Positions 47,401-63,729 of a stretch of 64,000 nucleotides of DNA are shown here, in pieces (position 1 is the stretch's first letter; each line of letters begins with the position of its first letter). The position numbers and the translations under genes are program-made. Origin of the DNA: Pelomonas sp. Root405 (GTDB lineage Bacteria > Pseudomonadota > Gammaproteobacteria > Burkholderiales > Burkholderiaceae_C); NCBI RefSeq assembly GCF_001425165.1, contig NZ_LMDU01000018.1, positions 149,429-213,428 on the forward strand, read 5' to 3'. Below the pieces are notes generated by a model. The model ran no database searches. It worked only from the letters and a program-made list of their open reading frames with translations, and was not told where the DNA came from.

Positions 47401-47422
47401 GCAGGCATTGAAAGAGCCAGGA

Positions 47423-47498: not shown

Positions 47499-48164
47499 AT
47501 GCGATTGCTGCTGCTTGAAGACGACCGCCTGCTCGGAGAAGGTCTGCGCGATTTCCTGTGCACCGAAGGCCACGTCGTCGATTGGTGCTGCACCGTGGCG
47601 CAGGCACGGGCCGCGCTCCGCGGTGACCCCTTCGACGCCTGGCTGCTGGACTGGCAACTGCCCGACGGCTCGGGCCGGCAACTGCTTGCCGAGCTGCGCC
47701 GTGGCAACGCGCGCACGCCAGCGCTGATGCTGACGGCGCGTGACGCGCTGGCGGATCGCATCGACGGGCTCGACAGCGGCGCGGACGACTACCTCGTCAA
47801 GCCATTCGCTCCCGAGGAACTCGCAGCGCGCATCCGCGTCTGCCTGCGCCGGCTCCAGGCCGAGCCCCAGGGCCTGCGGCTGCAGGCGCAGCTCCAGGTC
47901 GGCCTGGCAGAACGCCAGGTTTGGTGGAAAGGCTCGGCCGTTGAACTGACCGCGCGCGAGTGGACCCTGCTGGAGGCGCTGTGCCTGCGCGCGGAGCGTT
48001 GGGTCAGCAAGTCCGATCTGGACCGGCTGGTCCACGGCTTTGATGGCGAGCCCGCTGCCAGCAATGCACTGGAGGTCCATGTGTCCAACCTGCGCCGCAA
48101 GCTGGGCCGCACCAGCATCGAGACTTTGAGAGGCATGGGTTACAGGGTTCGCCATGAGCGCTGA
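47499..48164 (+). CDS. OmpR family response regulator (PmrA/QseB-like)
   Basis: A 221-residue two-component regulator. The receiver domain has the acidic pair in LLEDDRLL, the phospho-accepting Asp in AWLLDWQLPDGSG, the Thr in LMLTARDAL and the Lys in DDYLVKPFAPEEL. The C-terminal winged helix has WTLLEALCLRAERWVSKSDL and EVHVSNLRRKLG. It overlaps the sensor kinase gene by 11 bases. Beside eptA and PAP2 it most resembles PmrA, but QseB is similar in sequence, so I leave the symbol empty. Confidence 0.92.
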   Translation: MRLLLLEDDRLLGEGLRDFLCTEGHVVDWCCTVAQARAALRGDPFDAWLLDWQLPDGSGRQLLAELRRGNARTPALMLTARDALADRIDGLDSGADDYLVKPFAPEELAARIRVCLRRLQAEPQGLRLQAQLQVGLAERQVWWKGSAVELTAREWTLLEALCLRAERWVSKSDLDRLVHGFDGEPAASNALEVHVSNLRRKLGRTSIETLRGMGYRVRHER

Positions 48165-49407
48165 ACCGCTGCCGACCATTGCCCGGCGCCTGCTATGGGT
48201 GACCGCCGTCGGCAGCTTGGTGATCGCGCTCGCGATGAGCGCGGCGGCGGTGCTGACCGTCGATGCCGAAGTGGATGAGCTGCTGGACGACGGGCTGCAG
48301 GCCAGTGCGGCACTGCTCGCCCCATTGCTGATCGAGCCAGGCGCCGCGCTGGCGCCCACGCCGCCCGACCCGGAGGGCGAACTGCGCTTTGCCTGGGCCT
48401 GGTACGACAGCGCGGGCCGCCTGGTGCGGGCCAGCCCGGGTGCGGAGCCTGGCGCCTGGCAGAGTGCCGGCAGCGGCTTCTCGGATCGACACCATTGGCG
48501 CCTGTACGGCCTGGCATTGCGCGGCGAACAGGGCTTGCTGGTTGTCGCGCAGACGCGCGCAGAGCGTCACGAGGCGCGCCGCGAGGTCAGCAGCTACGCC
48601 TTGCTGGCGGGGCTTGCGATGACGCTGCTTTGCCTGCCGCTGCTGGCCTGGCGCGCCCAGCAGGAGCTGCGGCCGCTGCTGCGCCTGGGCGAGCGGTTGG
48701 CGGACTTCGATGCCGGCCGAGCAGACCCGCGCCGCCTTCCGGCCCAACTGGGCAGTGCGGAGCGTGGCGAACTGCTGCCTGTCCATGAAGCACTGGCCAG
48801 CATCTCGCTGCGGCTCGGCGAGCGCCTGGATTTCGAGCGCGAGTTCAGCGCCCAGGCGGCGCATCTGTTGCGCACGCCGCTGGCCGGCATCGAGGCGCAA
48901 CTCGCGGTCGCGCTGCGCGAGCAGCCGGATCAACTGCGGCTGCAGCGGGTGCGCCAGGCCAGCCAGCGCTTGCAGCACCTGGTGCTGGCGCTGCTGCGGC
49001 TGTTCCGTGCCGAACCCGAGTTGCAACGCAAGCCGCTGGAGGTGCGGACCTTGCTGACCGGCCTGCAGCTTGGAGAGCTGGAGTTGGACGATGGACCGCC
49101 CTGCCCGCTCGATGCCGACCCGGAACTGCTGGCGGCCGCGCTGCTGAATCTGGTGGACAACGCCCAGCGCCACGGTGCAACGCGGCTGACGCTGAGCGCC
49201 ATACCCGGCGGGCTCCGGCTCGTCGACAACGGCCACGGCGTCACGCCCGAACGGCTTGACGCGCTGCGCGCAAAACTGCAGCCCAACCAGCATTCATCGG
49301 GCCTGGGCCTGCGGCTGGCCCTGCTGGTGGCGCGCGCCCACGGCGGACGGATCGAACTCCCCGGCGTGGAGCGGGGCTTCGCCGTCGAACTCCATCTGCA
49401 GGCCTGA
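48154..49407 (+). CDS. Sensor histidine kinase (PmrB/QseC-like)
   Basis: A 417-residue membrane kinase. It has one hydrophobic helix near the N-terminus, a periplasmic part of about 115 residues, a second helix (SYALLAGLAMTLLCLPLLAW), a HAMP-like linker, then the H-box FSAQAAHLLRTPLAGIEA with the phospho-accepting histidine, the N-box LVDNAQRHG and the G-box DNGHGV / GLGLRLALLVARAHGG. It starts inside the end of the regulator gene. The periplasmic part is longer than in enterobacterial PmrB and lacks an obvious iron-binding ExxE motif. It is the likely partner of the response regulator and faces the next gene across 45 bases. Confidence 0.9.
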   Translation: MSAEPLPTIARRLLWVTAVGSLVIALAMSAAAVLTVDAEVDELLDDGLQASAALLAPLLIEPGAALAPTPPDPEGELRFAWAWYDSAGRLVRASPGAEPGAWQSAGSGFSDRHHWRLYGLALRGEQGLLVVAQTRAERHEARREVSSYALLAGLAMTLLCLPLLAWRAQQELRPLLRLGERLADFDAGRADPRRLPAQLGSAERGELLPVHEALASISLRLGERLDFEREFSAQAAHLLRTPLAGIEAQLAVALREQPDQLRLQRVRQASQRLQHLVLALLRLFRAEPELQRKPLEVRTLLTGLQLGELELDDGPPCPLDADPELLAAALLNLVDNAQRHGATRLTLSAIPGGLRLVDNGHGVTPERLDALRAKLQPNQHSSGLGLRLALLVARAHGGRIELPGVERGFAVELHLQA

Positions 49408-49452
49408 GCCCGCGTCCATCGTCGACGCGGCCGGCCTCGCCGCGCCGGCTTG

Positions 49453-51117
49453 TCAGGCCTGCACCGGCACGCTGATCTCGAACCAGAAACGGCTGCCCTG
49501 GGCCAGCCGGCTTTCAAGGCGGATCTCGCCGCCCATCATGCGCACCAGTTGCCGGCTGATGGCCAGCCCCAGGCCGGTGCCGCCAACGCGCTGCTCGGCA
49601 TTGCCGGCCTGCTCGAAGGGCTCGAACAGGCGCGCGATCTGGTCCTCGGCGATGCCGACGCCGGTGTCCTGCACCTCGAAGCACAGCCTGACATGACCCG
49701 GCTCCTCGCCGGTTGAGGGCAGCGTGCGCGCATGCAGCGTCACGCCGCCCACGTGGGTGAACTTGACCGCATTGCCCAGCAGGTTGAGCAGGATCTGGTT
49801 GAGCCGTTTCTCGTCGGCCAGCACGACGGCCGGCAACTGCGGGTCGAGCTGCAGGTCCAGCGTGATGTGCTTGTCCTCGGCCATCACGCGCACGATGTCG
49901 ATGACGGCCTGCAGCCGCGGTACCAGCTCGACGGGCGCGATGCGCAGCTCGGCCTTGCCGGCCTCGATGCGCGACAGGTCCAGGATGTCGACGATCAGCG
50001 TCAACAGGTGCTGGCCGCTGCTGTGGATGATGTCCAGGCCGTTGCGCTGCTTGGCGCTGAGATCGGCGTCCAGCTTCAGGATCTGCGCATAACCCATGAC
50101 GGCGTTCAGCGGCGTGCGGAGCTCGTGGCTCATGCGCGCCAGGAACTGGCTCTTGGCGCGGTTGGCGATCTCGGCGCGCTCCTTGGCATGGCTGAGCTCC
50201 AGGGTGCGCTCGCGCACCAGGTCTTCCAAGTGGTCACGGTGGGCGCCGAGTTCGGTTTCGCGGTCCTGCAGCACGGCCAGCATGCGGTTGAAGCTGTGGG
50301 CCATGGCGGCAATGTCGCGCGGGCCGCCGGCGGGCGCGCGCACGTCGACCTCGCCGCGCTCGACCCGCTCCATCGCGTCGGACAGCGCGACCAGCGGGCG
50401 CGTCAGCCGCAACGCCAGGAAGCGCACTGCGAACAGGAACAGCGTCGCGAACAACAGCGCCACGCCGAAATTGGCGATGAACAGCGAGGTCTGGGTGCGG
50501 TGCAGCGTCGCCTTGCTCTGGATGACGCGCACATGCCCGAGCAGCTGCGCCGGCCGCAGCGTCGCGTCGAAGGGTGAGGCCTCGGGGCGCGTCCAGACCG
50601 GCGCAGCGAAGGCCCAGCTGTCCTCGGTCTCCTGGGCCAGCCAGGGCGCACTGGATGCCGGGTCTGGCGCCACAACCGCCGCGCCTGCCAGGGGCAGGCG
50701 GTCGCGCTCGGCGCCGAGCGACAGCAGCAGGCGCCCGGTGGTGTCACGGATCTCGATGGCCATGACGTCGGGAAAGGCCAGCGACGCGCGCACGGCTTCC
50801 TCGGCGTTGTCCGCGGCCGCGTACAGCAGGGCCAGCGAACTGTTGGACGCCAGGTTGGCCGCCACGCGCCCGCCCTGGTCCATTAGCATGGCCCGCACCT
50901 CTCGACCGCCCTGCCAGGCGTTGACCGCTGCCACCAGCAGGGCCAGGCAAAGCGCGCCCAAGGCAACAGCCACGCTGAGATGGCGGCGGAAGGGAACTTC
51001 ACGCAACCAGCGCGCATACACGTTCAGCGGCCAGGGGCGTTGTCGGCCCGGCGGCACGGCGCCCTCGTCCCGCAGCAGGGCGGGCGGCTGGGAGTCCAGT
51101 GGAAGAGGTGGCGTCAC
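49453..51117 (-). CDS. Sensor histidine kinase with CHASE8-like periplasmic domain
   Basis: A 554-residue membrane kinase. After about 40 residues comes helix 1 (VALGALCLALLVAAVNAW), then a periplasmic sensor with MDQGGRVAANLASNSSLALLYAAADNAEEAVR, the CHASE8 type. Helix 2, HAMP (LTRPLVALSDAMERVERGEV), a coiled coil and the kinase core follow: MSHELRTPLNAVMGYAQIL, LLNLLGNAVKFTH, DTGVGIAEDQIARLFEPFEQ and GGTGLGLAISRQLVRMMGG. No receiver domain is attached. The GTG at 51117 is chosen because it follows AAGGGTC and lies 10 bases after the binding-protein gene. The partner regulator is not in the window. Confidence 0.9.
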   Translation of the reverse strand: MTPPLPLDSQPPALLRDEGAVPPGRQRPWPLNVYARWLREVPFRRHLSVAVALGALCLALLVAAVNAWQGGREVRAMLMDQGGRVAANLASNSSLALLYAAADNAEEAVRASLAFPDVMAIEIRDTTGRLLLSLGAERDRLPLAGAAVVAPDPASSAPWLAQETEDSWAFAAPVWTRPEASPFDATLRPAQLLGHVRVIQSKATLHRTQTSLFIANFGVALLFATLFLFAVRFLALRLTRPLVALSDAMERVERGEVDVRAPAGGPRDIAAMAHSFNRMLAVLQDRETELGAHRDHLEDLVRERTLELSHAKERAEIANRAKSQFLARMSHELRTPLNAVMGYAQILKLDADLSAKQRNGLDIIHSSGQHLLTLIVDILDLSRIEAGKAELRIAPVELVPRLQAVIDIVRVMAEDKHITLDLQLDPQLPAVVLADEKRLNQILLNLLGNAVKFTHVGGVTLHARTLPSTGEEPGHVRLCFEVQDTGVGIAEDQIARLFEPFEQAGNAEQRVGGTGLGLAISRQLVRMMGGEIRLESRLAQGSRFWFEISVPVQA

Positions 51118-51127
51118 GCTTTGACCC

Positions 51128-52111
51128 TTAACTGGTGGGGTAGACCAGGTCGAACCCGGACTGCACTGCCGCGACATCGATGCCCAGATGCGCGGCTGTG
51201 CGGATGTTGATGGCGGCCCGCGCCTGGCGCAGCGGGAGTACCCCGGCCGTGCCTGCCCCGCCGGCACGCGAGCCCGCGGCCAGGCGCTGGGCCGACGTGG
51301 CCAGCGTGCGGCCCAACTCGTGGTTGTCGGGATAGAGGGAGAACAGGGCACCGCGCTTCACATGGGCGAGATGGCTGGAGAACACGGCGATGTTGCGGTT
51401 CCAGCCCTCCTTGAGCACGAGGGGCAGCACGGTGCCGTCGTCCACCGAAGTGAGGTCCTGCGGCAGCCACAGTGCGTCGCGCGCGGGGTCGGCCGCGGCC
51501 AGCAACTGGGTGTAGGCGCGCAGCGCCCCGGCTTGGTCGGCGGCCTCCTGCGCCAGCAACTCCAGCCCTTCGGCACGGGCGGCATCACGCGCCAGCTTCA
51601 CGAGCCAGGCATTGAGCTTCGGGTCATAGACCAGATGCACCCGCCGTGTGCCGGGCTTGAGGCGTTTCAGCCGTGCCAGCAGCAGGGCCGGGTCGGGCGC
51701 CAGCGTGTGAATGGGGAAGCCGCGCGCCTCGGATTCCTGCACCGACACGACGCAGCCGACCAGCACCGCCAGCTCATCGGCCAGCGCCGCCGCGATGCGC
51801 ATGCCGCCGCGGCCCAGACCGATCAGCACCTTGGCCTCGCGCCGGCGCATGTCCTCGGCAATCTGCGCCGGATTGGCGTTGTTGGCGACGGCCAGGCTGG
51901 TCACCGCACCGCCCAGCTTGTCTTCGATGCCGCCGATGATGGCGGTGAAGATCTGCCGGAAGGGCTCGCCCAGCTCCGGGTAGACGACCACCAGCGAGCG
52001 GCCCAGCTCCGCCGCCGGCGCGGCGCCAGCGGCGAGCGCCACGGCAGCGCCCAGGGCCTGTCGCAATGCAGCGCGGCGCGTGGCTTGGGCGGGGCAACCG
52101 GGCTCAGTCAA
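51128..52111 (-). CDS. ABC-type substrate-binding protein (DUF534/ABC_sub_bind-like)
   Basis: A 327-residue periplasmic protein. The signal region is ATRRAALRQALGAAVALAAG, with RR that could suit the Tat route. The mature part has the two-lobed fold of the TrpX-like ABC_sub_bind group: VVVYPELGEPFRQIFTAIIGG, GLGRGGMRIAAALADE, PGTRRVHLVYDPKLNAWLVK and ALWLPQDLTSVDD. No permease or ATPase gene accompanies it. It precedes a sensor kinase by 10 bases and is divergent from a TonB-dependent receptor. It may bind a ligand brought in by the receptor and present it to the kinase. Ligand unknown. Confidence 0.82.
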   Translation of the reverse strand: MTEPGCPAQATRRAALRQALGAAVALAAGAAPAAELGRSLVVVYPELGEPFRQIFTAIIGGIEDKLGGAVTSLAVANNANPAQIAEDMRRREAKVLIGLGRGGMRIAAALADELAVLVGCVVSVQESEARGFPIHTLAPDPALLLARLKRLKPGTRRVHLVYDPKLNAWLVKLARDAARAEGLELLAQEAADQAGALRAYTQLLAAADPARDALWLPQDLTSVDDGTVLPLVLKEGWNRNIAVFSSHLAHVKRGALFSLYPDNHELGRTLATSAQRLAAGSRAGGAGTAGVLPLRQARAAINIRTAAHLGIDVAAVQSGFDLVYPTS

Positions 52112-52443
52112 GTGAAGGGTGCAACGTGGAAGGGCGATCGGGGCCGGGACGGGTGGGCGGCATTATGCAAAGGCCAGAGGCTGGCGACGGTACACGGCGC
52201 GCACGGTGACGCCTCCCAAATAGACCGCCAAGTCGTGCACGATGCCCACCGTCCGCATCCCCCGGGCGCAGTGCTCGCTTCAAGTTCAGGCCGCGTACCA
52301 CGTTTGGGCGCTGCCGGCACACGACTTGTCGCGCGTGCACAGTTCACGACGCGCACCACACGCCCATGGCGCCTGCTCCTGCGCGCACCACGGCGGCGAC
52401 AGCACAATACGCGCCCACACCTTTCACCTCGGAGAAGCCAGCA
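52112..52443. promoter_or_regulatory. Divergent intergenic region, no gene seen
   Basis: A 332-base gap between the binding-protein gene and the TonB receptor gene. It must hold both promoters. The only clear structure is the perfect palindrome TCGTGCACGA at 52233-52242, a possible operator midway. A partly similar GCGTGCACAG occurs near 52336. No convincing -35/-10 pair or Fur-type site was found. Confidence 0.4.
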
Positions 52444-54552
52444 ATGCGACCTTTCTTTGGCTTGGTGATTCTGGGCGGTCTCTGGTTTGCGGCGGGGGCA
52501 CCGGCCGCCTTCGCGCAGCCGGCCAGCGAGGAAGAGGAACTGGCGCAGGTCTACGGCGACAAGACCACCGTCAGCATCGCCACCGGCGCCGCGCAGTCGC
52601 TGCGCCGCGCGCCGGCGGTGGCCACCGTCATCACGGCGCAGGACATCGCCATGATGGGCGCGACCGACCTGGACCAGGTGCTGGCCACCGTGCCCGGCAT
52701 CCATGTGGGCCGCAACAACCAGGGCTACAACCCGCTCTACATCGTCCGCGGCATCTACAGCGAGTTCAACGCGCAGACGCTGGTGCTCTACAACGGCGTG
52801 CCGATGACGACGATGTTCATCGGCAACCGGGGCACGATCTGGGCCGGCATGCCGGTGGCCAACATCGCGCGCATCGAGGTCATTCGCGGTCCGGGCTCGG
52901 CGCTGTACGGCGCGGACGCCTATGCCGGCGTCATCAACATCGTCACCAAGGGGCCGGCCGACACCGCCGGCCTGGAGCTGGGGCTGCGCGCCGGCTCGTT
53001 CGCCAGCCGCGACGCCTGGGTGCAGTACGGCGGCGAGATCGGCGCGCTGGCCGTGGCCGCCTATCTGCGCGCGGGCCGCACCGACGGCTTCAAGGAGCTG
53101 GTGCAGGCCGACGCACAGACCGGCCTGGACGGCCTGTTCGGCACCCGGGCCAGCCTGGCGCCGGGGCCGGTGAACACCGGGCACGACGCGGTGGACGCGC
53201 ATGTCGAGGGCAACTACGGCAAGCTGCGCCTGCGCGCCGGCTACACGCTGCGCGACGACGTCGGCACCGGCGCCGGTGCCGGCGGCGCGCTCGACCCGGT
53301 CGGCAAGGGCCGCAACCAGCGCTGGAACGCCAGCGTGTCGCTGTCGGACCTGGAACTGGCGCCCCAGCTGCTGCTCAACCTCAGCGGCAGCTACTTCCAG
53401 TTCAGCAACCAGTTCACGAAACCCCTGCAGGTCTTCCCGCCCGGCTCATTTGGCGGCAGCTTTCCGCAGGGCATGTTCGGTGCGCCCAACACCTGGGAAC
53501 GGCAGAGCCGGGTGGCCGCCGTGGTGGCCTACACCGGCTGGGCCGGCCACCAACTGCGGCTCGGCGTGGGCCATGACGACCTGGACATGTACCGCACGCA
53601 GGAGTTCAAGAACTTCACCATCATCGACTCCGGACCCGCCAAGGGGCTGCCGATGCCGCTGCCGGGCGGGCAGCTGGAGGAGTTCCCGGTCGACAAGTCC
53701 TTCGCGACGCCGCAGCGGCGCCGCGTCAGCTATGCCTATGTGCAGGACGAATGGAGCGTCGCGCCCGACTGGACGCTCACCGCCGGCGTGAGGCGCGACC
53801 ACTACAGCGACTTCGGCGCCACCACCAACCCGCGCCTGGCGCTGGTGTGGGACGCCAGCCTGGACCTGACCGCCAAGCTGCTGATCGGCCGCGCGTTCCG
53901 CGCACCGTCGTTCTCGGAGGAATACAGCATCAACAACCCCGTCATCCGCGGCAACCCGCTGCTGAAGCCGGAGCGAATCAGCACGGCCGAGGCGTCCGTC
54001 AGCTGGCAGCTGGGCGAGGCAGCACAGCTGCAGGCCAGCGCCTTCCGCTACACGATGACGGACATCATCCGCGCGGCAAGCGTCGGCGGCGGCACGTCGG
54101 AGTACATGAACCAGGGCACGCAGCGCGGCCACGGCTTTGAGCTGGAGCTGGTGGTGGACGTGGCGCGCAACCTGCGCCTGGCGGGCCACTACGCCTACCA
54201 GCGCGCCATCGACGAAAGCACCAACCACGACGCCGGCTACGCGCCGCACCAGATGGCCTATGTGCGTGCCGACTGGCACTTCGACAAGGGCTGGGCGTTG
54301 AGCGGCCAGGTCAAGCGCGTGGCAGGCCGCATGCGCGCCGCAGGCGATGCCCGGCCGCCGGTGCCCGACTACACCAGTGCCGACCTGACGTTGCGCACGG
54401 CGCTGCGCCAGTCCGGCTGGGACCTGGCTGTCTCGGCACGCAACCTGTTCAACGCCGACGTGCGCGAGCCCAGCCTGGCGAGCACCGGCGTGCCGTACGA
54501 CCTGCCGATGGCGGGCCGTGCGGTCGACGTGCAGCTGGTCTACCGCTTCTAG
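52444..54552 (+). CDS. TonB-dependent outer-membrane receptor
   Basis: A 702-residue outer-membrane receptor for a large or rare substrate. The signal peptide ends APAAFA; the ATG at 52444 follows CGGAGAAG. The TonB-box region is near DKTTVSIATGAAQ. The plug domain carries AVATVITAQDIAMMGATDLDQVLATVPGIHV, RGIYSEFNAQTL, and the family motif VANIARIEVIRGPGSALYGADAYAGVINIVTK. The beta-barrel has typical C-terminal strands ending YDLPMAGRAVDVQLVYRF with terminal Phe. It resembles vitamin B12 or copper/siderophore-type receptors. Divergent genes for a binding protein and kinase suggest a shared ligand. The stop overlaps the convergent citrate-synthase-like gene by 4 bases. Confidence 0.92.
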   Translation: MRPFFGLVILGGLWFAAGAPAAFAQPASEEEELAQVYGDKTTVSIATGAAQSLRRAPAVATVITAQDIAMMGATDLDQVLATVPGIHVGRNNQGYNPLYIVRGIYSEFNAQTLVLYNGVPMTTMFIGNRGTIWAGMPVANIARIEVIRGPGSALYGADAYAGVINIVTKGPADTAGLELGLRAGSFASRDAWVQYGGEIGALAVAAYLRAGRTDGFKELVQADAQTGLDGLFGTRASLAPGPVNTGHDAVDAHVEGNYGKLRLRAGYTLRDDVGTGAGAGGALDPVGKGRNQRWNASVSLSDLELAPQLLLNLSGSYFQFSNQFTKPLQVFPPGSFGGSFPQGMFGAPNTWERQSRVAAVVAYTGWAGHQLRLGVGHDDLDMYRTQEFKNFTIIDSGPAKGLPMPLPGGQLEEFPVDKSFATPQRRRVSYAYVQDEWSVAPDWTLTAGVRRDHYSDFGATTNPRLALVWDASLDLTAKLLIGRAFRAPSFSEEYSINNPVIRGNPLLKPERISTAEASVSWQLGEAAQLQASAFRYTMTDIIRAASVGGGTSEYMNQGTQRGHGFELELVVDVARNLRLAGHYAYQRAIDESTNHDAGYAPHQMAYVRADWHFDKGWALSGQVKRVAGRMRAAGDARPPVPDYTSADLTLRTALRQSGWDLAVSARNLFNADVREPSLASTGVPYDLPMAGRAVDVQLVYRF

Positions 54553-55358
54553 GCGCCCCAGGCTCGGGGCGCGGCGCCCTCATACGTCACGTTGTCGCAG
54601 GCCAGCGGCAAAAGCGTGCCGGCGGGCTTCTCGCTCGCCTCGATGTAGCAGGGCTGCATGCCGGCCAGGAAGGCCGGGAAGCCGTACTGGTAATGCTGGC
54701 GCGGCGTGAAGCCCATGTCCGACGTCAGCGCGGCGGTCAGCGCGGCGTAGTTCATGCGCAGCCGCCAGCGGCCTTCCTGCAGGTGCTTCTCGACGGCCAG
54801 TGCCGCCTGCACGTGGGCGCCACCGGCCAGCCCTTCCCGCTCCACCAGACGCAGCATCGGGCCAATGCGCTCGTCGCCCGCCGCGATGGGCCGGCCGTAG
54901 CCGGCGATGGCGCGGTGGCGCTGCAATTCCTCGCGCACGCAGTCGTCAAGGCCTGACCCCGACGCGATCACCTGCTGCGCGCGCTGGATGAAGCTGGCGG
55001 CACGGATGTCGATGCCACGGCCGTAGATCTCGGCCTCGGACACCGCCAGCGCCGCCGCCACGGCCAGCGTGCCCGAGCTGCGGGCGCTGCCGGCCAGCGC
55101 GGCCACGCGGTTGTTCCAGATGCGGGCGTCCGGGTAGCTGGTGTGGACCCAGATCGCATGCAGCACCTTCAGCTGCGCCGGCGTATAGCGCTGGCCAGTG
55201 ATGCCGAAGACATACAGCGCCAGCCAGTCCATGTCGCCCAAATCGGCATGCAGGTCATGGCCGCGGAACACGGCGCGCTGGCCCACGAAGGCGCCACCCA
55301 TGCGGGTGCGCAGGCGGCCGGCGTGCTCTTCAAGCGGCGAGGTCTTCTGTTCGTTCAT
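54549..55358 (-). CDS. Citrate-synthase-fold protein, half-size, degenerate active site (subunit A)
   Basis: A 269-residue protein of the citrate synthase/citryl-CoA lyase superfamily, about 60 percent of the usual size. Family features: LGDMDWLALYVFGITGQRYTP, HAIWVHTSYPDARIWNNRVAALAGSARSS, and FGFPAFLAGM-like GFPAFLAGM near the C-terminus. The usual catalytic motifs are altered: HGGA reads YGRG (112-115), GFGHPxY reads GYGRPI (153-158) and the NVDF aspartate position reads MNYA (202-205). So it may not make citrate alone. It overlaps the other half-size gene by 4 bases and probably works with it. Possible names such as citryl-CoA lyase are by fold only. Confidence 0.75.
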   Translation of the reverse strand: MNEQKTSPLEEHAGRLRTRMGGAFVGQRAVFRGHDLHADLGDMDWLALYVFGITGQRYTPAQLKVLHAIWVHTSYPDARIWNNRVAALAGSARSSGTLAVAAALAVSEAEIYGRGIDIRAASFIQRAQQVIASGSGLDDCVREELQRHRAIAGYGRPIAAGDERIGPMLRLVEREGLAGGAHVQAALAVEKHLQEGRWRLRMNYAALTAALTSDMGFTPRQHYQYGFPAFLAGMQPCYIEASEKPAGTLLPLACDNVTYEGAAPRAWGA

Positions 55359-56143
55359 GCCGCTTCCTTCAGCGGGTCGTCCTGCAGGTCCAACGCGAAG
55401 AACGGGAAGTCCTTGTAGCTGCCGGCGCGCTGCTCCAGCGCATGCGCCGCCGCACCCGGTAGGCGCAGCAGCAGGTGCAGCATCTCGCCCTGCTCCGGGC
55501 TGAAGCCGAGGTCGGCCAACGCTGCGGCAGCGACACCCGACATCGCCAGCGGCAGGCCCACGGCCGCCCCGACGGCCGCGTGATGCGCCGCCAGCCAGCG
55601 CAGGCGCGGGGTGTCGGCTATGTCGGCCAGCCGCTGCAAGGCATCACGAACGATGCCGGCCGTGACGACGCCGTTGGGCTCGAAGCCCGGCGGGTGCTCG
55701 GCGTCGGGCCAGATGGCCGACGTGGGCGCCGCGGACGACACCCAATGCGTCGCCAGCGATGCAACGTCCAGCGGCGCGTCGGTCCACAGCGTCATCGCCG
55801 CAGCCACCTCCTGCGCCCCGCCATGCCGGCCGGCGCCCACGGCCAGCGCGGCCATCAAGGCCGCTGCGGCCGGCGAGCGGCCCAGCCCCGAGCACATGGC
55901 CGCGTGCACGGCCGCATCACGCGGGCCCGCGTTGGCCAGCGCCACCGCCAGCGCCTCCAGCAGGCGCGCCTGCGCCTCGGTCGGCGCGTCCTCGCGGAAC
56001 AACAGCCACAGCATGTCGACCCAGCGGGCGCGACCCAGCATGTCGCCGTACACGTCGTAGCCGCGGCAGTGCGCGGTGCGCGTGGCAAAGCGGTCGGCGG
56101 GCTCCGCCTCTTCGCGCCAGATGCGCGTGCGCACCTGCGCCAT
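55355..56143 (-). CDS. Citrate-synthase-fold protein, half-size, keeps HGGA motif (subunit B)
   Basis: A 262-residue second member of the same superfamily. It has the N-terminal citrate-synthase-like core MLWLLFREDAPTEAQARLLEALAVALANAGPRDAA, then AALAVGAGRHGGAQEVAAAM with an intact HGGA (His107), which is the acyl-CoA histidine in true enzymes. The second and third catalytic places (around PPGFEPNG, 151-158, and GLPLAMSG, 196-203) do not match His or Asp. Its ATG shares a base with the SDR stop (TGATG), and its own end overlaps subunit A by 4 bases. With subunit A it may form a split enzyme. Function unknown. Confidence 0.72.
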   Translation of the reverse strand: MAQVRTRIWREEAEPADRFATRTAHCRGYDVYGDMLGRARWVDMLWLLFREDAPTEAQARLLEALAVALANAGPRDAAVHAAMCSGLGRSPAAAALMAALAVGAGRHGGAQEVAAAMTLWTDAPLDVASLATHWVSSAAPTSAIWPDAEHPPGFEPNGVVTAGIVRDALQRLADIADTPRLRWLAAHHAAVGAAVGLPLAMSGVAAAALADLGFSPEQGEMLHLLLRLPGAAAHALEQRAGSYKDFPFFALDLQDDPLKEAA

Positions 56144-56916
56144 CACATCAACTGGCTGAAGCCGCCGTCCACCACCAGCTCGGCGCCGACGACATAGGAC
56201 GAAGCCGGCGAGGCCAGATACAGCACCGCGTTGGCGACTTCCTCGGCCGTGCCGAAACGCTGGCTGGGCGAGCGCTGCGTCAGGTCGGCGCGCGCGGCGT
56301 CCACGGCTTCGCGGGGCACGTTGTCCCAACGGCCGAAGCCGGGCGTGTCGATGGGGCCGGGGCTGACCGCATTGACGCGGATGCCGCGCGGCGCCAGCTC
56401 CAGGCTGGCGCTGCGCACCAGCGAACGCGCCGCCGCCTTGCAGGCCGCGTAGGCCGAGAAGCCCGGCGCGCCGACCTGGTTGGCGATGGACGTCGTCACG
56501 ACGATGGACGCCCCCGGGCGCAGCAGCGGCAGCGCGCGCTGGATGGTGAAGAACACACCCTTGAAGGCGACGTTGTTCATCGCGTCGAACTGGTCTTCGC
56601 TCATGAACTCGATGGGCATCGGCGAGCCGCCGGTGGCGTTCAGCACCAGCAGGTCGAGGTGGCCGAACCTGGCCTTCACCTGCGCCATCAGGCGGTCGAT
56701 GTCGTCCAGCTTGCCGGCGTCGCTGCGCTCGGCCAGCAGGTCGTGGCCCAGGCTGTCGCGCGCCGCAGCCAGCGTCGCTTCATCGCGGCCGGTGATCATC
56801 ACGCTGGCGCCCTGCGCCATGAAGAGCCTGGCCGTGGCCAGGCCGATGCCGCTGTTGCCACCGGTGATGAGGGCCGTCTTGCCCAGCAGTGATCCGGTAT
56901 TCGTCATGTCGCTCAT
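56143..56916 (-). CDS. SDR family oxidoreductase
   Basis: A 257-residue NAD(P)-dependent dehydrogenase of the classical short-chain type. Motifs: ALITGGNSGIGLATA (Gly-rich cofactor loop), LVLNATGGSP (in place of the usual NNAG), the catalytic Ser in VVTTSIANQVG, YAACKAA with Tyr and Lys, and AVSPGPIDTPGFG. It has no signal peptide. ITGRDEAT after strand 2 has an Arg, which favours NADP(H). The ATG at 56916 overlaps the ThDP enzyme stop by 4 bases, so it works in the same pathway. It could reduce the ketone made by the ThDP enzyme. Confidence 0.92.
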   Translation of the reverse strand: MSDMTNTGSLLGKTALITGGNSGIGLATARLFMAQGASVMITGRDEATLAAARDSLGHDLLAERSDAGKLDDIDRLMAQVKARFGHLDLLVLNATGGSPMPIEFMSEDQFDAMNNVAFKGVFFTIQRALPLLRPGASIVVTTSIANQVGAPGFSAYAACKAAARSLVRSASLELAPRGIRVNAVSPGPIDTPGFGRWDNVPREAVDAARADLTQRSPSQRFGTAEEVANAVLYLASPASSYVVGAELVVDGGFSQLM

Positions 56917-58757
56917 TTCGCAGTCCCAAGGGTTTTCATTCGAAGATTCATCGGCGGCACTTCCTCGCCGTCGATGCGCACATCCAGCAGCGTCGGCCCG
57001 CCGCGCGACAGGATGGCGTTGAAGTCCAGCGCGTCGAGGTCGGCCGGCGAGCGCACCACATGGCCCGGGATGCCCATGGCGGCGGCCATCATGGCGAAGT
57101 CCACCTTGGGCAGCTGGAAGCCGATGGGCTCCGCACCCGCCAGGCGCTGGCCGTGCTTGACCATGCCCAGCGCGCCGTCGTTCAGCACGACATAGAGCAC
57201 CGGCAGGCCCAGCTCGGCGGCCACGGTGATCTCCTGGCCGTTCATCAGATAGCTGCCGTCGCCCGTCAGGCAGACGACCGGGCAGCGGCGGTTGGCCATC
57301 GCGATGCCCACGGCCGAGCCGATGGCCCAGCCCATGGGCGCGAAGTCCATCGTCACGCGCAGCCAGCTGGACGGGCGCGTGCGCCGTTCCTGGCCCGCCG
57401 GCAGGTAGGGCCCGCCGGGCAGGCGGCCGCTGCGTTGGTCATGCGGCGCGAGGTAGTGCACAGCCCAGGCGGCGCTGTTGCCGGCGTCGGCGACAAAGCG
57501 GGTCTGCGGCGGGCAGCGCTCGGAAAGCGTGGCCAGCAGGCGCTGCGGCTTGACCGGCGTGCTGTCGCTGTGGATGGCGGTCGGGCTGTCCACCATGGCC
57601 TCGTAGGCCTGGCGTGCTTTCTGTGGATGCAGGAAGGGCAGCACGGTGGCGTCCTGCCCGTTGTTGGACGGCGCCAGCAAGGTGATCAGCTGCTCGCACA
57701 CCGACTTGATATGGCCGCGCACATGCAGCCGCGCCGTCGGCGAGCGCATCAGGTTCTCGTCGCTGTCGTCCACATGCACGAGGCGGCTGTTCAGCAGGTG
57801 GGTGGACCAGCCACCGCTGTTGAACTCGCCGAAGCCCGTGCCCAGCGCGACGACCAGGTCGGGCTCGCTGGACAGCAGCTCGGCCGCGCTGGCGTGGCCG
57901 CCAAAGCCGAACACGCCGCGAAAGCGCGGGTGGCGCGGGTTGATGAAGCCCTTGCCGTCCGGCGTGGCGATGAAATGGCCGTCGGTCAGCTGCACCAGCT
58001 GCATCAGCTCGTTGGCGGCCTCGCCGCAGCCGTCGCCGATCAGCCAGACCGGCGCACGAGCCGAGAACAGTAGGCGCGCCAGCTGGCGCACGGCGGGCAG
58101 GTCCACCAGCGCCGGTGCGCGGCGCAGCAGGCCGGAGAAGTCGGGCGTCTCCAGGTCGTGCGGCAGCGGCTGGCGCAGGATGTCCACCGGGATGGACAGG
58201 TGGCTCGGCCCGCTCGGCGCGCGCTGCGCATGCATCAGCGCGTTGAACAGCTTGATGGGCAGCTGCTCGGCATGCGAGACCAGCGAGTTGTAGCGCGTGC
58301 ACGGGCGGAACATCGCCATCGTGTTGATGCCCGTGCAGCTCGACTCCTGCAGCGCGCCCTTGCCGAAGTTCTTGATCGGGGGCTGGCCGGTGATGACCAG
58401 CATCGGCACGTTGTTGTCATAGGCGCAGGCCACGCCGGTGATCAGGTTGGTGGCGCCCGGCCCGGAGGTGGCGATGCACACACCGATCTTGCCGGTCTCG
58501 CGGGCATAGCCGTCAGCCATGTAGGCGGCACCCTGCTCGTTGCGGGCGACGACGGCCTGCGGGCCGCCGCGCCGGCCGCTGCGGGCCAGCGCGTTGTACA
58601 GCGGCTCGATGGCGCCGCCGGGCACGCCGAAGACGTACTCGACGCCGAGGGCCTCAAGCGCCTCGACCAGCATGTCGGCGGCGTCACGGGCAGCGGGCTG
58701 GTGCGCCGAGTCGGGCGCGGCGGCATAGAAAGGGGCAAGAGCAGTGTTTGATTCCAC
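56913..58757 (-). CDS. Thiamine-diphosphate-dependent enzyme, acetolactate synthase-like
   Basis: A 614-residue ThDP enzyme with the three domains of the acetolactate synthase/glyoxylate carboligase family. The N-terminal domain has VPGGAIEPLYNALA and the catalytic Glu in ARNEQGAAYMADGYAR. The middle FAD/Rossmann-type domain is present. The C-terminal ThDP motif is GDGSYLMNGQE followed by VVLNDGALGMVKHGQ. The start is uncertain: GTG at 58757 is chosen because homology begins about 40 residues later; longer frames include unlikely sequence. A carboligase acting on 2-oxoacids is likely, but its neighbours are not ilv genes, so the product may be unusual. First gene of a four-gene unit. Confidence 0.85.
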   Translation of the reverse strand: MESNTALAPFYAAAPDSAHQPAARDAADMLVEALEALGVEYVFGVPGGAIEPLYNALARSGRRGGPQAVVARNEQGAAYMADGYARETGKIGVCIATSGPGATNLITGVACAYDNNVPMLVITGQPPIKNFGKGALQESSCTGINTMAMFRPCTRYNSLVSHAEQLPIKLFNALMHAQRAPSGPSHLSIPVDILRQPLPHDLETPDFSGLLRRAPALVDLPAVRQLARLLFSARAPVWLIGDGCGEAANELMQLVQLTDGHFIATPDGKGFINPRHPRFRGVFGFGGHASAAELLSSEPDLVVALGTGFGEFNSGGWSTHLLNSRLVHVDDSDENLMRSPTARLHVRGHIKSVCEQLITLLAPSNNGQDATVLPFLHPQKARQAYEAMVDSPTAIHSDSTPVKPQRLLATLSERCPPQTRFVADAGNSAAWAVHYLAPHDQRSGRLPGGPYLPAGQERRTRPSSWLRVTMDFAPMGWAIGSAVGIAMANRRCPVVCLTGDGSYLMNGQEITVAAELGLPVLYVVLNDGALGMVKHGQRLAGAEPIGFQLPKVDFAMMAAAMGIPGHVVRSPADLDALDFNAILSRGGPTLLDVRIDGEEVPPMNLRMKTLGTAK

Positions 58758-59107
58758 GGTGCGGCAGCGGCAGGCAATAGGACACCGCAGCGGGCTGCGG
58801 AACCATTGCTTGCGCAAAGGCACCTGGCGGGTCCGCACGGCATCTGGAACTGGATGAGTCCACCGAGGCGGACCCTTGAACGGCCAATGGACGCAATGTC
58901 CCAACGGCCTTGCTCCCCCTGCGTGTGCGCGGTGGACCTGACTAGCCCCGCGTCATCTTTAGTCTGCGCATGAAGCCGTTAGCACCGCGCAGTGGACGCA
59001 ACTGTATCGAGGTGAAACTTACCCACATCCCCGCGAATGCGGGAAAACACGGGCCGGCCAGGGCCCAGTCGTGAACTAGTACCGCACGGCGCGGGGTCAG
59101 GGCTTGC
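58758..59107. promoter_or_regulatory. Intergenic region upstream of the ThDP operon, no gene seen
   Basis: A 350-base gap that must hold the promoter of the ThDP-SDR-citrate-synthase-like operon. It contains a 9-base direct repeat, TGGACGCAA, at 58889-58897 and 58993-59001, and a short hairpin (CCCGC-GAAT-GCGGG at 59030-59043) that lies just after the convergent side of the peptidase gene. No clear -35/-10 pair was seen. Confidence 0.4.
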
Positions 59108-60358
59108 CTAGGGCTTGCCTCTTGCGCCGGTCAGCCGCGCGACAGCGGCGAGTGTGGTCTGCGCCGCGTTCAGGCCGAGCAGGAAGTCCTTGTCCGAGTA
59201 CGTGTCGTACAGATCGGTCGGCTGGTGCCAATGGGGGTTCCAGCCCGCGCCGATCTGCATGCCGCGCTCGTTCTCGCGCACCGAGACGGCGGGCGCATGG
59301 TCCATGAAGGGCACCGAGTCGGTGTTGGTCATGCGGTTGCCGACGGCCACAGGGTAGTCTGTCGCATAGGTCTCGTTGGCCGCGCGCATGGCCCAGGCCA
59401 GCTTGGCGGACGCATCCGCCTGCTTGGAGTTGACCTGGAACTCCACATTCACGTCCGCCTCGGCGCGCTGGGCCGAAGGCGCGGTGTAGACCGGCTGGCC
59501 GCGCGCGTCGAGCACCGGCTTGCCTGCAGCGTCGAGCTTCGGGATGGGCATGCCATGGTCGAACAGCAGCATGTCGTGCTGGATGACGGCCAGCCACCTG
59601 GGCTCGGGGTAGCGACCCGAGCCCTTGGGCGATTCGATGCCCTGCAAATCTTTGCGCTGGGCCACATAGGCATGGGCACCGTTCAAGCCGCTCTCTTCGT
59701 TGTTCCAGAGGATGAAGCGGATGGACCGCTCCGTAGTCACGCCCGGCGCATTGAAGACGCGCGCCAGCTCCATCACCAGCGCCGTGCCCGAGCCATCGTC
59801 ATTGGCCGCCTCGCCGAAACCGAGGCCGTCCATGTGGGCCGACACGATGACCATCTCGTCGGGGCGGGTTGCGCCGACCTTGGTGCAATAGACGCTCTCA
59901 CGCGGGCCGGTGCCCAGCGGCGTCAGCTCCGAGTTCAGTGCCCGCAGCTTCTCGTCCGGTTGGGCCATCGGGTCGTTGTTCACGCCGATGGGCGCTCGCT
60001 TGCCAAACAGCGTGCCACCGCCCTGCGCCGCCGGGCCGGCTGCACGCACCGGCTGCAGCTGCACGGGACCACGCTTGGCCGGCTCAGTAAATTCGTAGCG
60101 CAGGCGCTCGGTGGCCGTGCAGCCATAGCTCTGCAGCTGCGCCTCGATCCAGTCCAGCGCCGCCCGGTTGCGCGCCGTGCCCTGGCGCCGGTCGCCGAAC
60201 TGCGTCAGGCCCTTGATGGTGGCCTTGTACTTGTCGAGTTCCAGCTGGTTGACGAGGGGCGCCACAGGGTCGGCCGTGTCGACGGGCGCCAGCTGGGCCA
60301 TGGCGTTCAGGCAGGTGGTGGCCAGCAAGGCGGCAGCAAGAGCGTGTTTGGAGCGCAT
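59108..60358 (-). CDS. M28 family zinc aminopeptidase, exported
   Basis: A 416-residue exported metallopeptidase. The signal peptide is ALAAALLATTCLNAMA. The co-catalytic zinc ligands are visible: VSAHMDGLG (His, Asp), GEAANDDGSGTA (Asp), ILWNNEESGLNGA (Glu pair with the general base), the DSVPF aspartate region and a closing HWHQPTDLYDTY histidine. It would release N-terminal amino acids from peptides in the periplasm or medium. The ATG at 60358 is chosen over a TTG three codons upstream. It stands alone, 66 bases from the next gene on the same strand. Confidence 0.92.
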   Translation of the reverse strand: MRSKHALAAALLATTCLNAMAQLAPVDTADPVAPLVNQLELDKYKATIKGLTQFGDRRQGTARNRAALDWIEAQLQSYGCTATERLRYEFTEPAKRGPVQLQPVRAAGPAAQGGGTLFGKRAPIGVNNDPMAQPDEKLRALNSELTPLGTGPRESVYCTKVGATRPDEMVIVSAHMDGLGFGEAANDDGSGTALVMELARVFNAPGVTTERSIRFILWNNEESGLNGAHAYVAQRKDLQGIESPKGSGRYPEPRWLAVIQHDMLLFDHGMPIPKLDAAGKPVLDARGQPVYTAPSAQRAEADVNVEFQVNSKQADASAKLAWAMRAANETYATDYPVAVGNRMTNTDSVPFMDHAPAVSVRENERGMQIGAGWNPHWHQPTDLYDTYSDKDFLLGLNAAQTTLAAVARLTGARGKP

Positions 60359-60424
60359 CGTGAGCAAGTGGGAGTCGGGTGTGGCTCATCCTAGGCCCGC
60401 TGCGGCGGCGCTCGACGACCGTGG

Positions 60425-61339
60425 TCAACCGCGCGGATCGGCCAGGCTCGCCGACAGCAGCAAGGCGGGCTCGTCGCGGTCATCGGGGTCCGTCACAAGC
60501 AGCAGCTGCAGCACGCCGTTCGCCTCGGTCACCGCGATGCCCTCGGCCTTGCAGCGCAGGGACAGCGGCCATACGCCAAGCAAGCGCCCGTCGGCCGCCA
60601 CGACACCGACGGCAGATCCCCGGCAGGGACCGTCCGCGTAGTTGTCATCGGTCGCCTCCGCCGCCGCGCAGAACACCCAGCTGCCGTCCAGCAGCGCCGC
60701 GCCGTCGGTGAAGCACAGCGGCACGCCCTCGATGGCCCCCAGATCAATCGGCGTGCTCGCCACCGGCTCGGGCGCCCGCCCTGCGCCGTCCAGCCACGCC
60801 TGGATCGCCAGCCAGTCGTAACCGATGAGCCCGTTGACCGGGCTGGCCTGGTTGCCCCGCTGCAGCAGGCAGAAGCGGCCGGCAGCGACGAAGGCGCCTT
60901 CGATGTTCAGCTGCGCGTGCCGGGCCTGCAGCGGCTCGTACAACGGCGAGAGGTCGATCACGCGAACGGCGCCGTCGATGTCACCCGCCTCGTTGAACGC
61001 CAGCAGCGCAGCGCGTTGGCGTTGCGGCCGGGACCCGGAACCGAGGGCCAGCAGCGCGCCGTGCGGGCAGTGGGGCGAGGGCGGCAAGTGCGCCAGCGCC
61101 TCCAGGTCGGGCTTGGCGGCCTTGCGGGCCTTGGGCTCGTCGGGCAGCTCGCCGTCGAAGAGCCGGTGCAGCCGGCCGGAGTGCTCGCCCCCGAGATCAA
61201 ACGCGGCCAGCGTGTGCTCGTCGTCGGCAACGACAAACAGTCGCTGGCCCAGCTGAACCAAGCCGCTGGCGGCGCTGAGGTGGCCCAACGCGGCGTTGGT
61301 CTCGACAGACAGGGTGCGGGCGACTCGGACCTTCAGCAT
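60425..61339 (-). CDS. Protein of unknown function, DUF6929-like, beta-propeller-type
   Basis: A 304-residue cytoplasmic protein without signal peptide. It has repeated strands such as GLVQLGQRLFVVADDEHTLAAFDL, DLEALAHLPPSPHCPHGALLALGSGSR and LNIEGAFVAAGRFCLLQRGN that suggest a beta-propeller-like fold. SRPQRQRAALLAF and KAEGIAVTEANGVLQLLLVTDPDD also match the conserved pattern I associate with DUF6929. No catalytic residues are evident. The ATG at 61339 is chosen; longer frames look non-coding. It is divergent from the tail-specific protease gene by 203 bases. Confidence 0.68.
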   Translation of the reverse strand: MLKVRVARTLSVETNAALGHLSAASGLVQLGQRLFVVADDEHTLAAFDLGGEHSGRLHRLFDGELPDEPKARKAAKPDLEALAHLPPSPHCPHGALLALGSGSRPQRQRAALLAFNEAGDIDGAVRVIDLSPLYEPLQARHAQLNIEGAFVAAGRFCLLQRGNQASPVNGLIGYDWLAIQAWLDGAGRAPEPVASTPIDLGAIEGVPLCFTDGAALLDGSWVFCAAAEATDDNYADGPCRGSAVGVVAADGRLLGVWPLSLRCKAEGIAVTEANGVLQLLLVTDPDDRDEPALLLSASLADPRG

Positions 61340-61542
61340 GGCAACGCTTCCCGGGAGTTTGCGGGCGATGCTAGCGGGGCTGCCGCTTTGCAGCGGTTGC
61401 GGGCCCAGGTGGCCACGGCGCGCGGCTCCCATTGCCATCAATTGCCCGCCGCGTGAGGTCCCGCCGGACCTGCCCCAGGGCATTCACGCCAGACATGGCA
61501 CCATCCAAACGTGCAAATCCGCGTGCGGGACCGTGTGAAGGA

Positions 61543-63729
61543 ATGAGAGTGAGACACAAGCTGTTGGGGTTGATGCTGGCCGTTGCGGCCGCAATGCCGC
61601 TTGCCACCGCTGATACGGCGCTGGCTTATCCGCCGCTGCTCGAGCCCGGCGCGCAGGACGCCAAGGCGGCCCGCCTGGCGGCGGACCTGCTGTCGCGCTA
61701 CCACTACAAGGCCATGCCGCTGGACGACGCGCTGTCGAGCCAGGTGTTCGATCAGTACCTGAAGCTGCTCGACCCCGAGAAGCTGTACTTCCTGCGGTCC
61801 GACATCGACCGCCTGGCGGCTGACCGCACCCGGCTCGACGACGCCATCCTGAACGAAGACCTGCGCACACCGTTCGCGATCTTCAACCTCTACGAACGCC
61901 GCGCCGCCGAGCGCATGGCTTTCGCGCGCAGCCTTCTGGCCAAGGGCTTCGACTTTGAGCGCAACGAGACGCTGATGATCGACCGCAAGGACCAGCCCTG
62001 GCCGGCGAGCGAGGCCGAGGCGCAGGAGCTCTGGCGCAAGCGCGTCAAGAACGACTGGCTGCGCCTCAGGCTCGCCGGCCGGGACGACGCGGCCATCCGC
62101 AAGCTGCTGGACAAGCGCTACGACAACAACGCCAAACGGCTGGCCAAGATCAACAGCGCGGATGCCTTCCAGGCGTTCATGAACGCCTACACCACGGCGA
62201 TCGAGCCGCACACCAACTACCTCGGGCCGCGCGCCGCCGAGAACTTCGACATCGCGATGCGCCTGTCGCTGGTGGGCATCGGCGCCGTCCTGACTGAAAA
62301 CGACGGCCACATCACCATTCGCGAACTGGTGGCAGGCGGGCCGGCCATGGTGTCGGGCCAGCTCCAGGTGGGCGACCGCATCGTCGGCGTCGGCCAAGGA
62401 CCGTCAGGCCCGATGGAGGATGTGGTCGGCTGGCGCCTGGACGACGTGGTGGCGCTGATCCGCGGCAAGGCGGCGTCGACGGTGCGGCTTGACATCCTGC
62501 CGGCGGACGGCGGGCCCGACGCGCCGGTCAAGACCATCGCCCTGGTCCGCGACACCATCAAGATGCAGGACAGCGCGGCCAAGGCCAAGGTGTACTCGGT
62601 GACGACCGGCGACGGCAAGCGCCGGGTCGGCGTCATCACCCTGCCCTCGTTCTACGAGGACGTCGCGGCCATGCAGAACGGCACCAAGGACTACCGCAGC
62701 GCCGCGCGCGACGTGGCCCGGCTGTTGCAGGACCTGAAGGCCCAGCAGGTCGAAGGCGTGCTGATCGACCTGCGCAACAACGGCGGCGGCTCGCTGCGCG
62801 AGGCGGTGGAGCTGACGGGCCTGTTTCTCGGCAAGGTGCCCGTGGTGCAGACCCGCAATGCCAAGGGCGAGGTCTCTGTCGCCACCAATACCGATACCGC
62901 GGTGGCCTGGCAGGGGCCGCTGGCGGTGCTGATCAACCGGGGCTCGGCATCGGCATCGGAGATCTTCGCGGCCGCGGTCCAGGACTACGGCCGCGGCCTG
63001 GTCATCGGCGAGCCCAGCTTCGGCAAAGGCACGGTCCAGACGGTCGCCCGGCTCGACCAGATCGCCAGGAATGCCAAGCCGACATTCGGCGACCTGAAGT
63101 TGACCATCGCGCAGTTCTTCCGCGTGAATGGCGGGACGACGCAACTGCATGGCGTGACGCCGGACATCCGCGTCCCCGCGGTGGGCGACGACAGCCCGTT
63201 CGGCGAGTCGAGCTTCGGCAACGCCCTGCCCGGGACGCGCATCCCGGCGGTCGACCACCAACCCGTCGGCGACCTGAAACCCCATCTGCCCCGCCTGAAG
63301 GCCTGGCACGAGAGCCGCGTGCAGCGAGACCGCGACTACCAGGACCTGGTGGAGGACCTGGCCAAGGCACGGGCGCAGCGCAAGAACAATGTGATTTCGC
63401 TCAACGAGGACGTGCGGCGCAAGGAGCGCGCCGCGCAGGAAAAGCGCCTGGTCGCCCTGCTGGGGGGCGCCGCCGCGAGCGCCGCGTCGGGCGCGGGCGG
63501 CACCCTGGCGGACGACGGCCTGCAATTCAACGAGCGCCAGCTCGCCCGCAACCTCGCCGCCCAGAAAGCCCGCGACGATGCCAACGACGCCATCCTGAAT
63601 GAGGCCGTCAACATCGTGTCCGACAGCGTCGCGTTGAAGGCCGGCAAGTCGCACGTGGCGGCGAGCGCCTCGTCGACGCGCCCCACGGTGATCAAGGCCC
63701 TGCTACTCCCGGGTTCATCGGAGCAATAG
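61543..63729 (+). CDS. prc: Carboxy-terminal (tail-specific) protease
   Basis: A 728-residue periplasmic serine protease of family S41 that degrades proteins marked at the C-terminus, including mislocalised or ssrA-tagged ones and some lipoprotein substrates. The signal peptide runs to about ATADTALA. N-terminal helical domain, then a PDZ domain around LVGIGAVLTENDGHITIRELV, then the catalytic Ser in NRGSASASEIFAA and Lys in GEPSFGKGTVQT. The C-terminal part (after about residue 570) matches the DUF3340 type helical tail. The ATG at 61543 has GAAGGA upstream. Confidence 0.93.
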   Translation: MRVRHKLLGLMLAVAAAMPLATADTALAYPPLLEPGAQDAKAARLAADLLSRYHYKAMPLDDALSSQVFDQYLKLLDPEKLYFLRSDIDRLAADRTRLDDAILNEDLRTPFAIFNLYERRAAERMAFARSLLAKGFDFERNETLMIDRKDQPWPASEAEAQELWRKRVKNDWLRLRLAGRDDAAIRKLLDKRYDNNAKRLAKINSADAFQAFMNAYTTAIEPHTNYLGPRAAENFDIAMRLSLVGIGAVLTENDGHITIRELVAGGPAMVSGQLQVGDRIVGVGQGPSGPMEDVVGWRLDDVVALIRGKAASTVRLDILPADGGPDAPVKTIALVRDTIKMQDSAAKAKVYSVTTGDGKRRVGVITLPSFYEDVAAMQNGTKDYRSAARDVARLLQDLKAQQVEGVLIDLRNNGGGSLREAVELTGLFLGKVPVVQTRNAKGEVSVATNTDTAVAWQGPLAVLINRGSASASEIFAAAVQDYGRGLVIGEPSFGKGTVQTVARLDQIARNAKPTFGDLKLTIAQFFRVNGGTTQLHGVTPDIRVPAVGDDSPFGESSFGNALPGTRIPAVDHQPVGDLKPHLPRLKAWHESRVQRDRDYQDLVEDLAKARAQRKNNVISLNEDVRRKERAAQEKRLVALLGGAAASAASGAGGTLADDGLQFNERQLARNLAAQKARDDANDAILNEAVNIVSDSVALKAGKSHVAASASSTRPTVIKALLLPGSSEQ

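Follow-up and report, generated by a model that had tools for sequence, protein, structure and literature searches.

A stretch of 64,000 nucleotides from Pelomonas sp. Root405 (contig NZ_LMDU01000018.1, positions 149,429 to 213,428; "the window" below means this whole stretch) carries an operon for a thiamine diphosphate (ThDP)-dependent enzyme and two small citryl-CoA-lyase-like proteins, subunits B and A. Next to it lie genes for a TonB-dependent outer-membrane receptor, a periplasmic binding protein of family PF04392 and a membrane sensor. We give a probability of roughly 0.45, a little short of even, to the reading that the ThDP-B-A operon and these three neighbours make, re-import and sense a small molecule. 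The gene set, its conservation, fusions of the ThDP enzyme with B, the predicted folds of A and B and their loss of the classical catalytic residues are established. An initial annotation of this DNA had proposed an undescribed pathway that makes or breaks branched acids. ThDP, B and A do make up a coupled unit that is conserved and whose function is undescribed, but the idea of a metabolic pathway fared less well in the neighbourhood survey, which found the gene set conserved and the receptor, the PF04392 protein and the sensor, all omitted from that annotation, adjoining the operon. These three genes favour a system for making, taking up and sensing over a metabolic pathway.

The operon reads on the minus strand from the ThDP gene (58757-56913; GTG start at 58757; Pfam TPP_enzyme N, M and C), through a gene for a short-chain dehydrogenase/reductase (SDR)-family oxidoreductase (56916-56143; PF13561 and PF00106) and B (from ATG 56143, giving 262 residues, or GTG 56146, to 55355), to A (55358-54549). 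All four frames are open and coupled, and all three junctions overlap, as had been claimed: ThDP and SDR by the four bases ATGA at 56913-56916, SDR and B through TGATG, in which TGA and ATG share the single base 56143, and B and A again by ATGA at 55355-55358. The closest named proteins to the operon products come from Roseateles and Pelomonas. Convergent with the operon is the receptor gene (52366-54552, plus strand; PF00593 and PF07715), whose true start may lie downstream. The PF04392 (ABC_sub_bind) gene follows at 51128-52111 and the sensor gene at 49453-51351, both on the minus strand; the sensor is a membrane histidine kinase with an N-terminal sensor region, HAMP, HisKA and HATPase domains. 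Directly beyond it, at 47499-49407 on the plus strand, are an OmpR-type response regulator and its histidine kinase.

Subunit A was found in 42 of 369 genomes of the class and in 10 of 398 genomes drawn from the phylum, and a scan for A provided 52 named loci. Carriers include Sphaerotilaceae and other Burkholderiales, Gallionellaceae, Sulfuricella, Rhodocyclales, a few Pseudomonadales and relatives of Geobacter, as well as single metagenome-assembled genomes (MAGs) with other labels, one of them Fibrobacteres. With a profile match of at least 60 bits counted as presence, the 52 named loci hold A and B throughout, the TonB receptor in 44, the sensor in 34 and the PF04392 protein in 31, with a second PF04392 type in 4 more. 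B is upstream of A in every one of them, overlapping it by exactly 4 bases in 46 (starts chosen by script). Forty-seven have the ThDP gene, 42 of them on the same strand; in five loci of Geobacter type its sequence has diverged and it lies on the opposite strand. When only the 31 named loci with at least 8 kb on both sides are counted, the ThDP gene is present in 31, the receptor in 29, the sensor in 26 and the PF04392 protein in 22 plus 4. The class draw, an even one, comprised the regions of 40 of the 42 matches, leaving out the own genome and a partial match in genome G093 (133 model positions); it gave B in 37, ThDP in 31, the receptor in 33, and the PF04392 protein and the sensor in 26 each. 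The pairing of binding-protein gene and membrane-sensor gene seen in the window has its counterpart in 26 of 40 class-draw loci, which hold both. All six core genes occur together in 30 of 52 named and 22 of 40 class-draw loci. In the phylum draw, ThDP, B and A are present in 8 of 8 loci, four of which are ordered receptor-B-A-ThDP-PF04392-sensor, their PF04392 and sensor matches being weak (57-88 bits).

The SDR, by contrast with its place in the set as first annotated, is not core (13 of 52 named loci, a profile match in 3 of 40 class-draw loci) and is best seen as an optional tailoring or reducing gene, as are a cytochrome P450 (7 named loci) and a sulfotransferase (4). No further gene cluster occurs in more than 16 of 100 loci, the largest resembling, by eye, a response-regulator protein. 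Several loci depart from the common plan. Four from Geobacter relatives (L025, L028, L044, L064) have an opposite-strand ThDP gene with 34-36% identity, the second PF04392 type and other kinases; one Pseudomonadales MAG has a tandem double ThDP-B-A (L023, 3611-10777); in Aquabacterium terrae a further ThDP gene of the cassette type, with 69% identity, lies near a sulfotransferase gene and has no B or A beside it (L015, 15337-17097); and three cassettes (L121, L128, L138) hold two consecutive TonB receptor genes.

The link between the operon and the binding protein is also visible in whole genomes. The PF04392 protein of the window is found in 45 of the 369 class genomes, with a single match in its own genome, and it occurs together with A in 37, against 5.1 expected (Fisher p about 1.5e-37, a value that is only a guide because the genomes are related to one another). 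With the own genome excluded, 36 genomes have both, of 41 with A and 44 with the PF04392 protein; by family, 23 share the two, of 26 with A and 27 with the PF04392 protein. A neighbouring gene for a DUF6929/DUF6910 protein (window 60425-61483, minus strand), taken as a control, is rare in the class (5 of 369 genomes), and two of its carriers, the own genome included, have A. No plasmid match was found for A, and an RNA scan of window positions 46000-64000 and of seven loci gave no riboswitch, and two tRNAs in L034 only.

The ThDP enzyme belongs to the acetolactate-synthase superfamily, and its score of 308 bits against the TIGR00118 acetolactate synthase model lies below the cut-off of 538.35. 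Its nearest solved relatives by sequence are BbmA (312 bits), CsmA (255) and IlvB (228), and a profile search with the family ranks them in the same order (388, 343 and 288 bits). In a tree of 13 cassette sequences, 4 Geobacter sequences and 6 references, with PDB rows that are partial, as far as HMMER printed them, the cassette and Geobacter enzymes group with BbmA and CsmA, apart from IlvB and the other ThDP enzymes of the genome (99/92). The grouping is therefore with alpha-hydroxy-beta-keto acid synthases rather than with acetolactate synthase. Gly536 is invariant in the 26 ThDP sequences of alignment A3 and aligns with Gly484 of BbmA, the residue changed in entry 8xod, and with a Gly of CsmA, whereas IlvB has Gln; at this place acetohydroxyacid synthase II carries a specificity-setting Trp. 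A small residue here fits a bulky substrate. CsmA and "BpmA", which we take to be BbmA, are described in a passage of PMC12395478 as homologues of CybE that make alpha-hydroxy-beta-keto acids. ThDP enzymes of the same type without a B part (P0250-P0362) occur in Marinobacter, Hahella, Alkalimarinus and Ketobacter, among others, and where named they are called acetolactate synthase or thiamine pyrophosphate-binding protein.

That B works beside the ThDP enzyme is evidenced by gene fusions. Locus L116 encodes a single chain of 886 residues, the ThDP enzyme followed by B across an open linker, and at least seven such chains, the query's own included, are among the 120 listed of 4850 matches. They measure 858-901 residues and cover 95-100% of the query; the six others are 53-72% identical to it. 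By simple patterns, two B motifs were recovered in six of the seven (not P0245) and the GDGS-LMNG ThDP motif in six (not P0248). No fusion of A and B in one frame was found in the window and 92 loci. The earlier suggestion of a heteromeric acyl-CoA condensing or lyase enzyme gains support in its first part: judged from gene pairing in 52 of 52 named loci and from the ThDP-B fusions, A and B likely form a heteromer.

The same suggestion had the pair as halves of a split enzyme, and here it finds no support. A and B each align along almost the entire citryl-CoA lyase chain, which points to two diverged paralogues; "half-size" is apt relative to citrate synthase but not to citryl-CoA lyase, itself about 265 residues long (6hxp, 268 residues). 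Predicted folds of both subunits share the citryl-CoA lyase/citrate synthase fold along the chain. Against the NCBIfam PRK06224 citryl-CoA lyase models their best scores fall well below the curated cut-offs (A, 52.1 bits against 245; B, 60.3 against 261). Their length, well below that of citrate synthase, and weak Pfam scores might suggest that a sequence error has split one citrate synthase or citryl-CoA lyase, or that the two are a pair of decaying pseudogenes. We regard this as practically impossible: the two-gene layout is identical in all 52 named loci, with the 4-base overlap in 46, both chains are near full citryl-CoA lyase length, and 52 of 269 positions in A and 52 of 263 in B are at least 98% conserved. 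Nor are A and B the Krebs-cycle synthase of the genome, since one full-length citrate synthase is encoded elsewhere (G000:C18:66986-68095).

The active-site positions tell of replacement. Conservation was counted in 172 A and 170 B sequences, namely the window, 120 listed proteins each and those loci within length limits (A, 255-300 residues; B, 240-300), and in further sets of 48 A sequences (27 near, 21 diverged) and of 25 near and 19 diverged B sequences, one of 26 near matches being too short for alignment. The motifs quoted in the initial annotation are present as given: HGGA at 108-111 of B, and YGRG at 112-115, GYGRPI at 153-158 and MNYA at 202-205 of A. Neither subunit has the catalytic His-His-Asp set (HGGA, GYGH, NVD) of citrate synthase and citryl-CoA lyase. 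In A the first His is replaced by Tyr (Y112 in 168 of 172 and in 47 of 48 further sequences, with F in one), the second is absent (GYGRP, with R156 and P157 in 172 of 172), and position 205, that of the Asp, is Ala in 97, Gly in 74 and Val in 1; in the 48 further sequences it is never Asp (Ala 27, Gly 8, Asn 6, Ser 3, Thr 3, Leu 1). Tyr204 varies in other lineages. Kept in 172 of 172 are N203, the Asn of LNVD, and R164 of the DPR motif, which aligns with the arginine of citrate synthase that binds the substrate carboxylate. R79, W81, G113, G153, R156, R164, N203 and G233 are invariant in all 48 further sequences.

B was said to keep the HGGA histidine, which is true of the window sequence but not of the family. 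Position 108 is His in 51, Tyr in 45, Leu in 35 and Ser in 19 of 170, and His occurs in 1 of 25 near but 12 of 19 diverged sequences; the residue may thus be ancestral and lost several times, and a residual catalytic His as a family feature of B is ruled out by these counts. The Asp position of B (203) is Ser in 111 or Thr in 42 (153 together), and R228 of its RxxGxxAH motif, present in 170 of 170, is lost in the diverged set. With the classical set gone while residues of their own are strictly conserved, the sequences indicate that A and B are rewired, not decaying. Could the pair have given up catalysis and instead regulate or scaffold the ThDP enzyme, like the small subunits of acetohydroxyacid synthase? 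The loss of catalytic residues from both chains and the fusion of B to the ThDP enzyme in at least seven listed proteins would suit such a role. We nevertheless find it quite improbable, because several polar residues of A that align with the substrate site, including the DPR-type arginine and the LNVD Asn, never vary, and an allosteric scaffold would have no need to keep them.

Several known systems offer partial likenesses. In size and fold, A and B are like the citryl-CoA lyase of Hydrogenobacter thermophilus (6hxp) and the citryl-CoA lyase module of ATP citrate lyase, from which they differ in lacking the HGGA/GYGH histidines and catalytic Asp, in scoring 40-60 bits against NCBIfam cut-offs of 193-261, and in forming two paired chains in a locus with a ThDP enzyme, a receptor and a sensor. 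Passages on the furanolide and carbazole pathways have their ThDP enzymes, CybE and CqsB3, acting before a second bond-forming enzyme (PMC12395478, PMC8777810, PMC7466098); these partners, CybF and CqsB1, are like ketoacyl-acyl carrier protein synthase (KAS) III and acylate or condense the acid (PMC8777810, PMC7466098). Here the partner is instead a pair with the citrate-synthase fold, CybE and CqsB3 being compared by description only. The furanolide pathway proper was set aside, since PMC8777810 describes CybF as KAS III-like and not as having the citrate-synthase fold. By eye, no KAS III-like furanolide synthase was recognised among the 19 clusters listed for 100 loci, with CybF not used as a query. 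In the open-licence literature we found no description of this gene set. A passage in PMC3751524, on Caulobacter and iron, mentions a "citrate lyase beta chain/citryl-CoA lyase subunit", whose name denotes a different type of lyase, and passages of the review PMC12247030 contain neither CsmA nor CybE.

We think it more likely that the operon makes an acid than that it breaks one. Kept close to the ThDP enzyme, the A-B heteromer would bind that acid through its carboxylate (R164 of A) and acylate, condense or cyclise it with residues of its own (Y112, R156, R79, W81 and N203 of A), a role that falls to the KAS III-like partner in the furanolide and carbazole pathways. The product would be a small lactone or acyloin-type compound, which the SDR, P450 or sulfotransferase would tailor in some lineages. 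No CoA ligase stood out by eye among the 19 clusters, so primary metabolism would have to supply any acyl-CoA partner. The product, possibly complexed with a metal, would re-enter through the TonB receptor and be bound by the PF04392 protein, which would inform the sensor; the sensor would answer by phosphotransfer or cyclic-di-GMP.

The outputs of the sensors differ among loci (kinase, GGDEF-EAL, or both) while their N-terminal region is common by profile, a pattern that would fit an unchanging input. This region gave no Pfam match above cut-off, the nearest being sCache_4 in one scanned protein (19.7 against 22.1 bits). A periplasmic binding protein encoded next to a HAMP membrane sensor with kinase or cyclic-di-GMP output recalls pairs such as LuxP/LuxQ and TorT/TorS; the present case differs in its PF04392 family, a sensor region without a Pfam match above cut-off, the TonB receptor and the other kind of synthase.

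The same neighbours could serve scavenging: a substrate from outside would enter through the receptor and be detected by the PF04392 protein and sensor, and the ThDP enzyme and A-B would degrade it, the former acting as a lyase and the latter as a CoA-dependent lyase. TonB receptors do import nutrients, uptake and sensing genes adjoin the operon, and ThDP enzymes and citryl-CoA lyases act in the cleaving direction in known cases. Catabolism nonetheless seems unlikely to us. No widely conserved inner-membrane importer or further catabolic gene was seen in 100 loci (the commonest ABC-ATPase-like neighbour, by eye, is in 6 of 100, at a median of 8.2 kb from A), the optional P450 and sulfotransferase look anabolic, the classical lyase residues are missing from A and B, and the carriers include the lithoautotrophs Gallionella, Sideroxydans, Ferrigenium and Sulfuricella.

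The receptor itself raises another alternative. Its closest solved matches by sequence are of siderophore type (colicin I receptor, PirA, enterobactin receptor), which makes a metal complex of the product possible, and the names of many carriers are those of iron-oxidising genera or of Geobacter. The product might then be a small hydroxy-acid chelator, imported with its metal and sensed for metal homeostasis. We hold this, too, to be unlikely. At a threshold of at least 13 of 19 matches, Fur-like sites show no excess upstream of the ThDP gene (4 of 82, shuffles 9.3%) and only a slight one upstream of the receptor (6 of 75, shuffles 3.5%) and the PF04392 gene (4 of 56, 1.8%); the best match within the window reaches 10 of 19 at most, and no widely conserved permease was found. 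Fur regulation was set aside for want of a clear signal in the upstream regions.

Several observations weigh against a system that makes, re-imports and senses its own product. The PF04392 protein is absent from 5 of the 42 genomes with A, and A from 8 of the 45 with the PF04392 protein. No exporter stood out in the inspection by eye that also gave no CoA ligase. Because the named loci themselves supplied the profiles for receptor, PF04392 protein and sensor (the sensor N-terminal model using kinase and GGDEF-EAL sensors of several), the counts there are partly circular and the class draw is the fairer count; in it, 9 of 40 regions have no ThDP match and 3 no B. Five of the nine lie near a contig end, whereas four (L115, L132, L136, L140) have at least 8 kb on either side. 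In L115 (8934-9602), from the single-contig genome G195, A stands with no other profiled family in 18.6 kb, and may be a lone A or an A put to a different use. The ThDP tree has few references and long branches, with BbmA itself joining the Geobacter enzymes, and not every family member shows the small residue at 536: matching by pattern gave Gly in 35 and Ala in one of 43 ThDP sequences and left seven without a match. What CsmA and BbmA catalyse is known through passages of citing papers, one of which prints "BpmA", and their PDB entries appear to stem from a Nat. Chem. 2025 study. Finally, six of the seven listed fusions come under one source only (lgn).

Should the proposal of a system for making, re-importing and sensing hold, roughly a ninth of the genomes sampled from the class (42 of 369) would possess a small-molecule system of their own, which annotation hides as "acetolactate synthase" and "citryl-CoA lyase"; iron-oxidising genera, burkholderial relatives and relatives of Geobacter are among the named carriers. 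A further caution would be that the label "citryl-CoA lyase" on these proteins gives weak support to a reductive tricarboxylic acid cycle. The citrate-synthase fold would join the partners of carboligating ThDP enzymes, with a chemistry in A-B unable to use the classical His-Asp mechanism, and there would be a definite signal or metallophore to look for.

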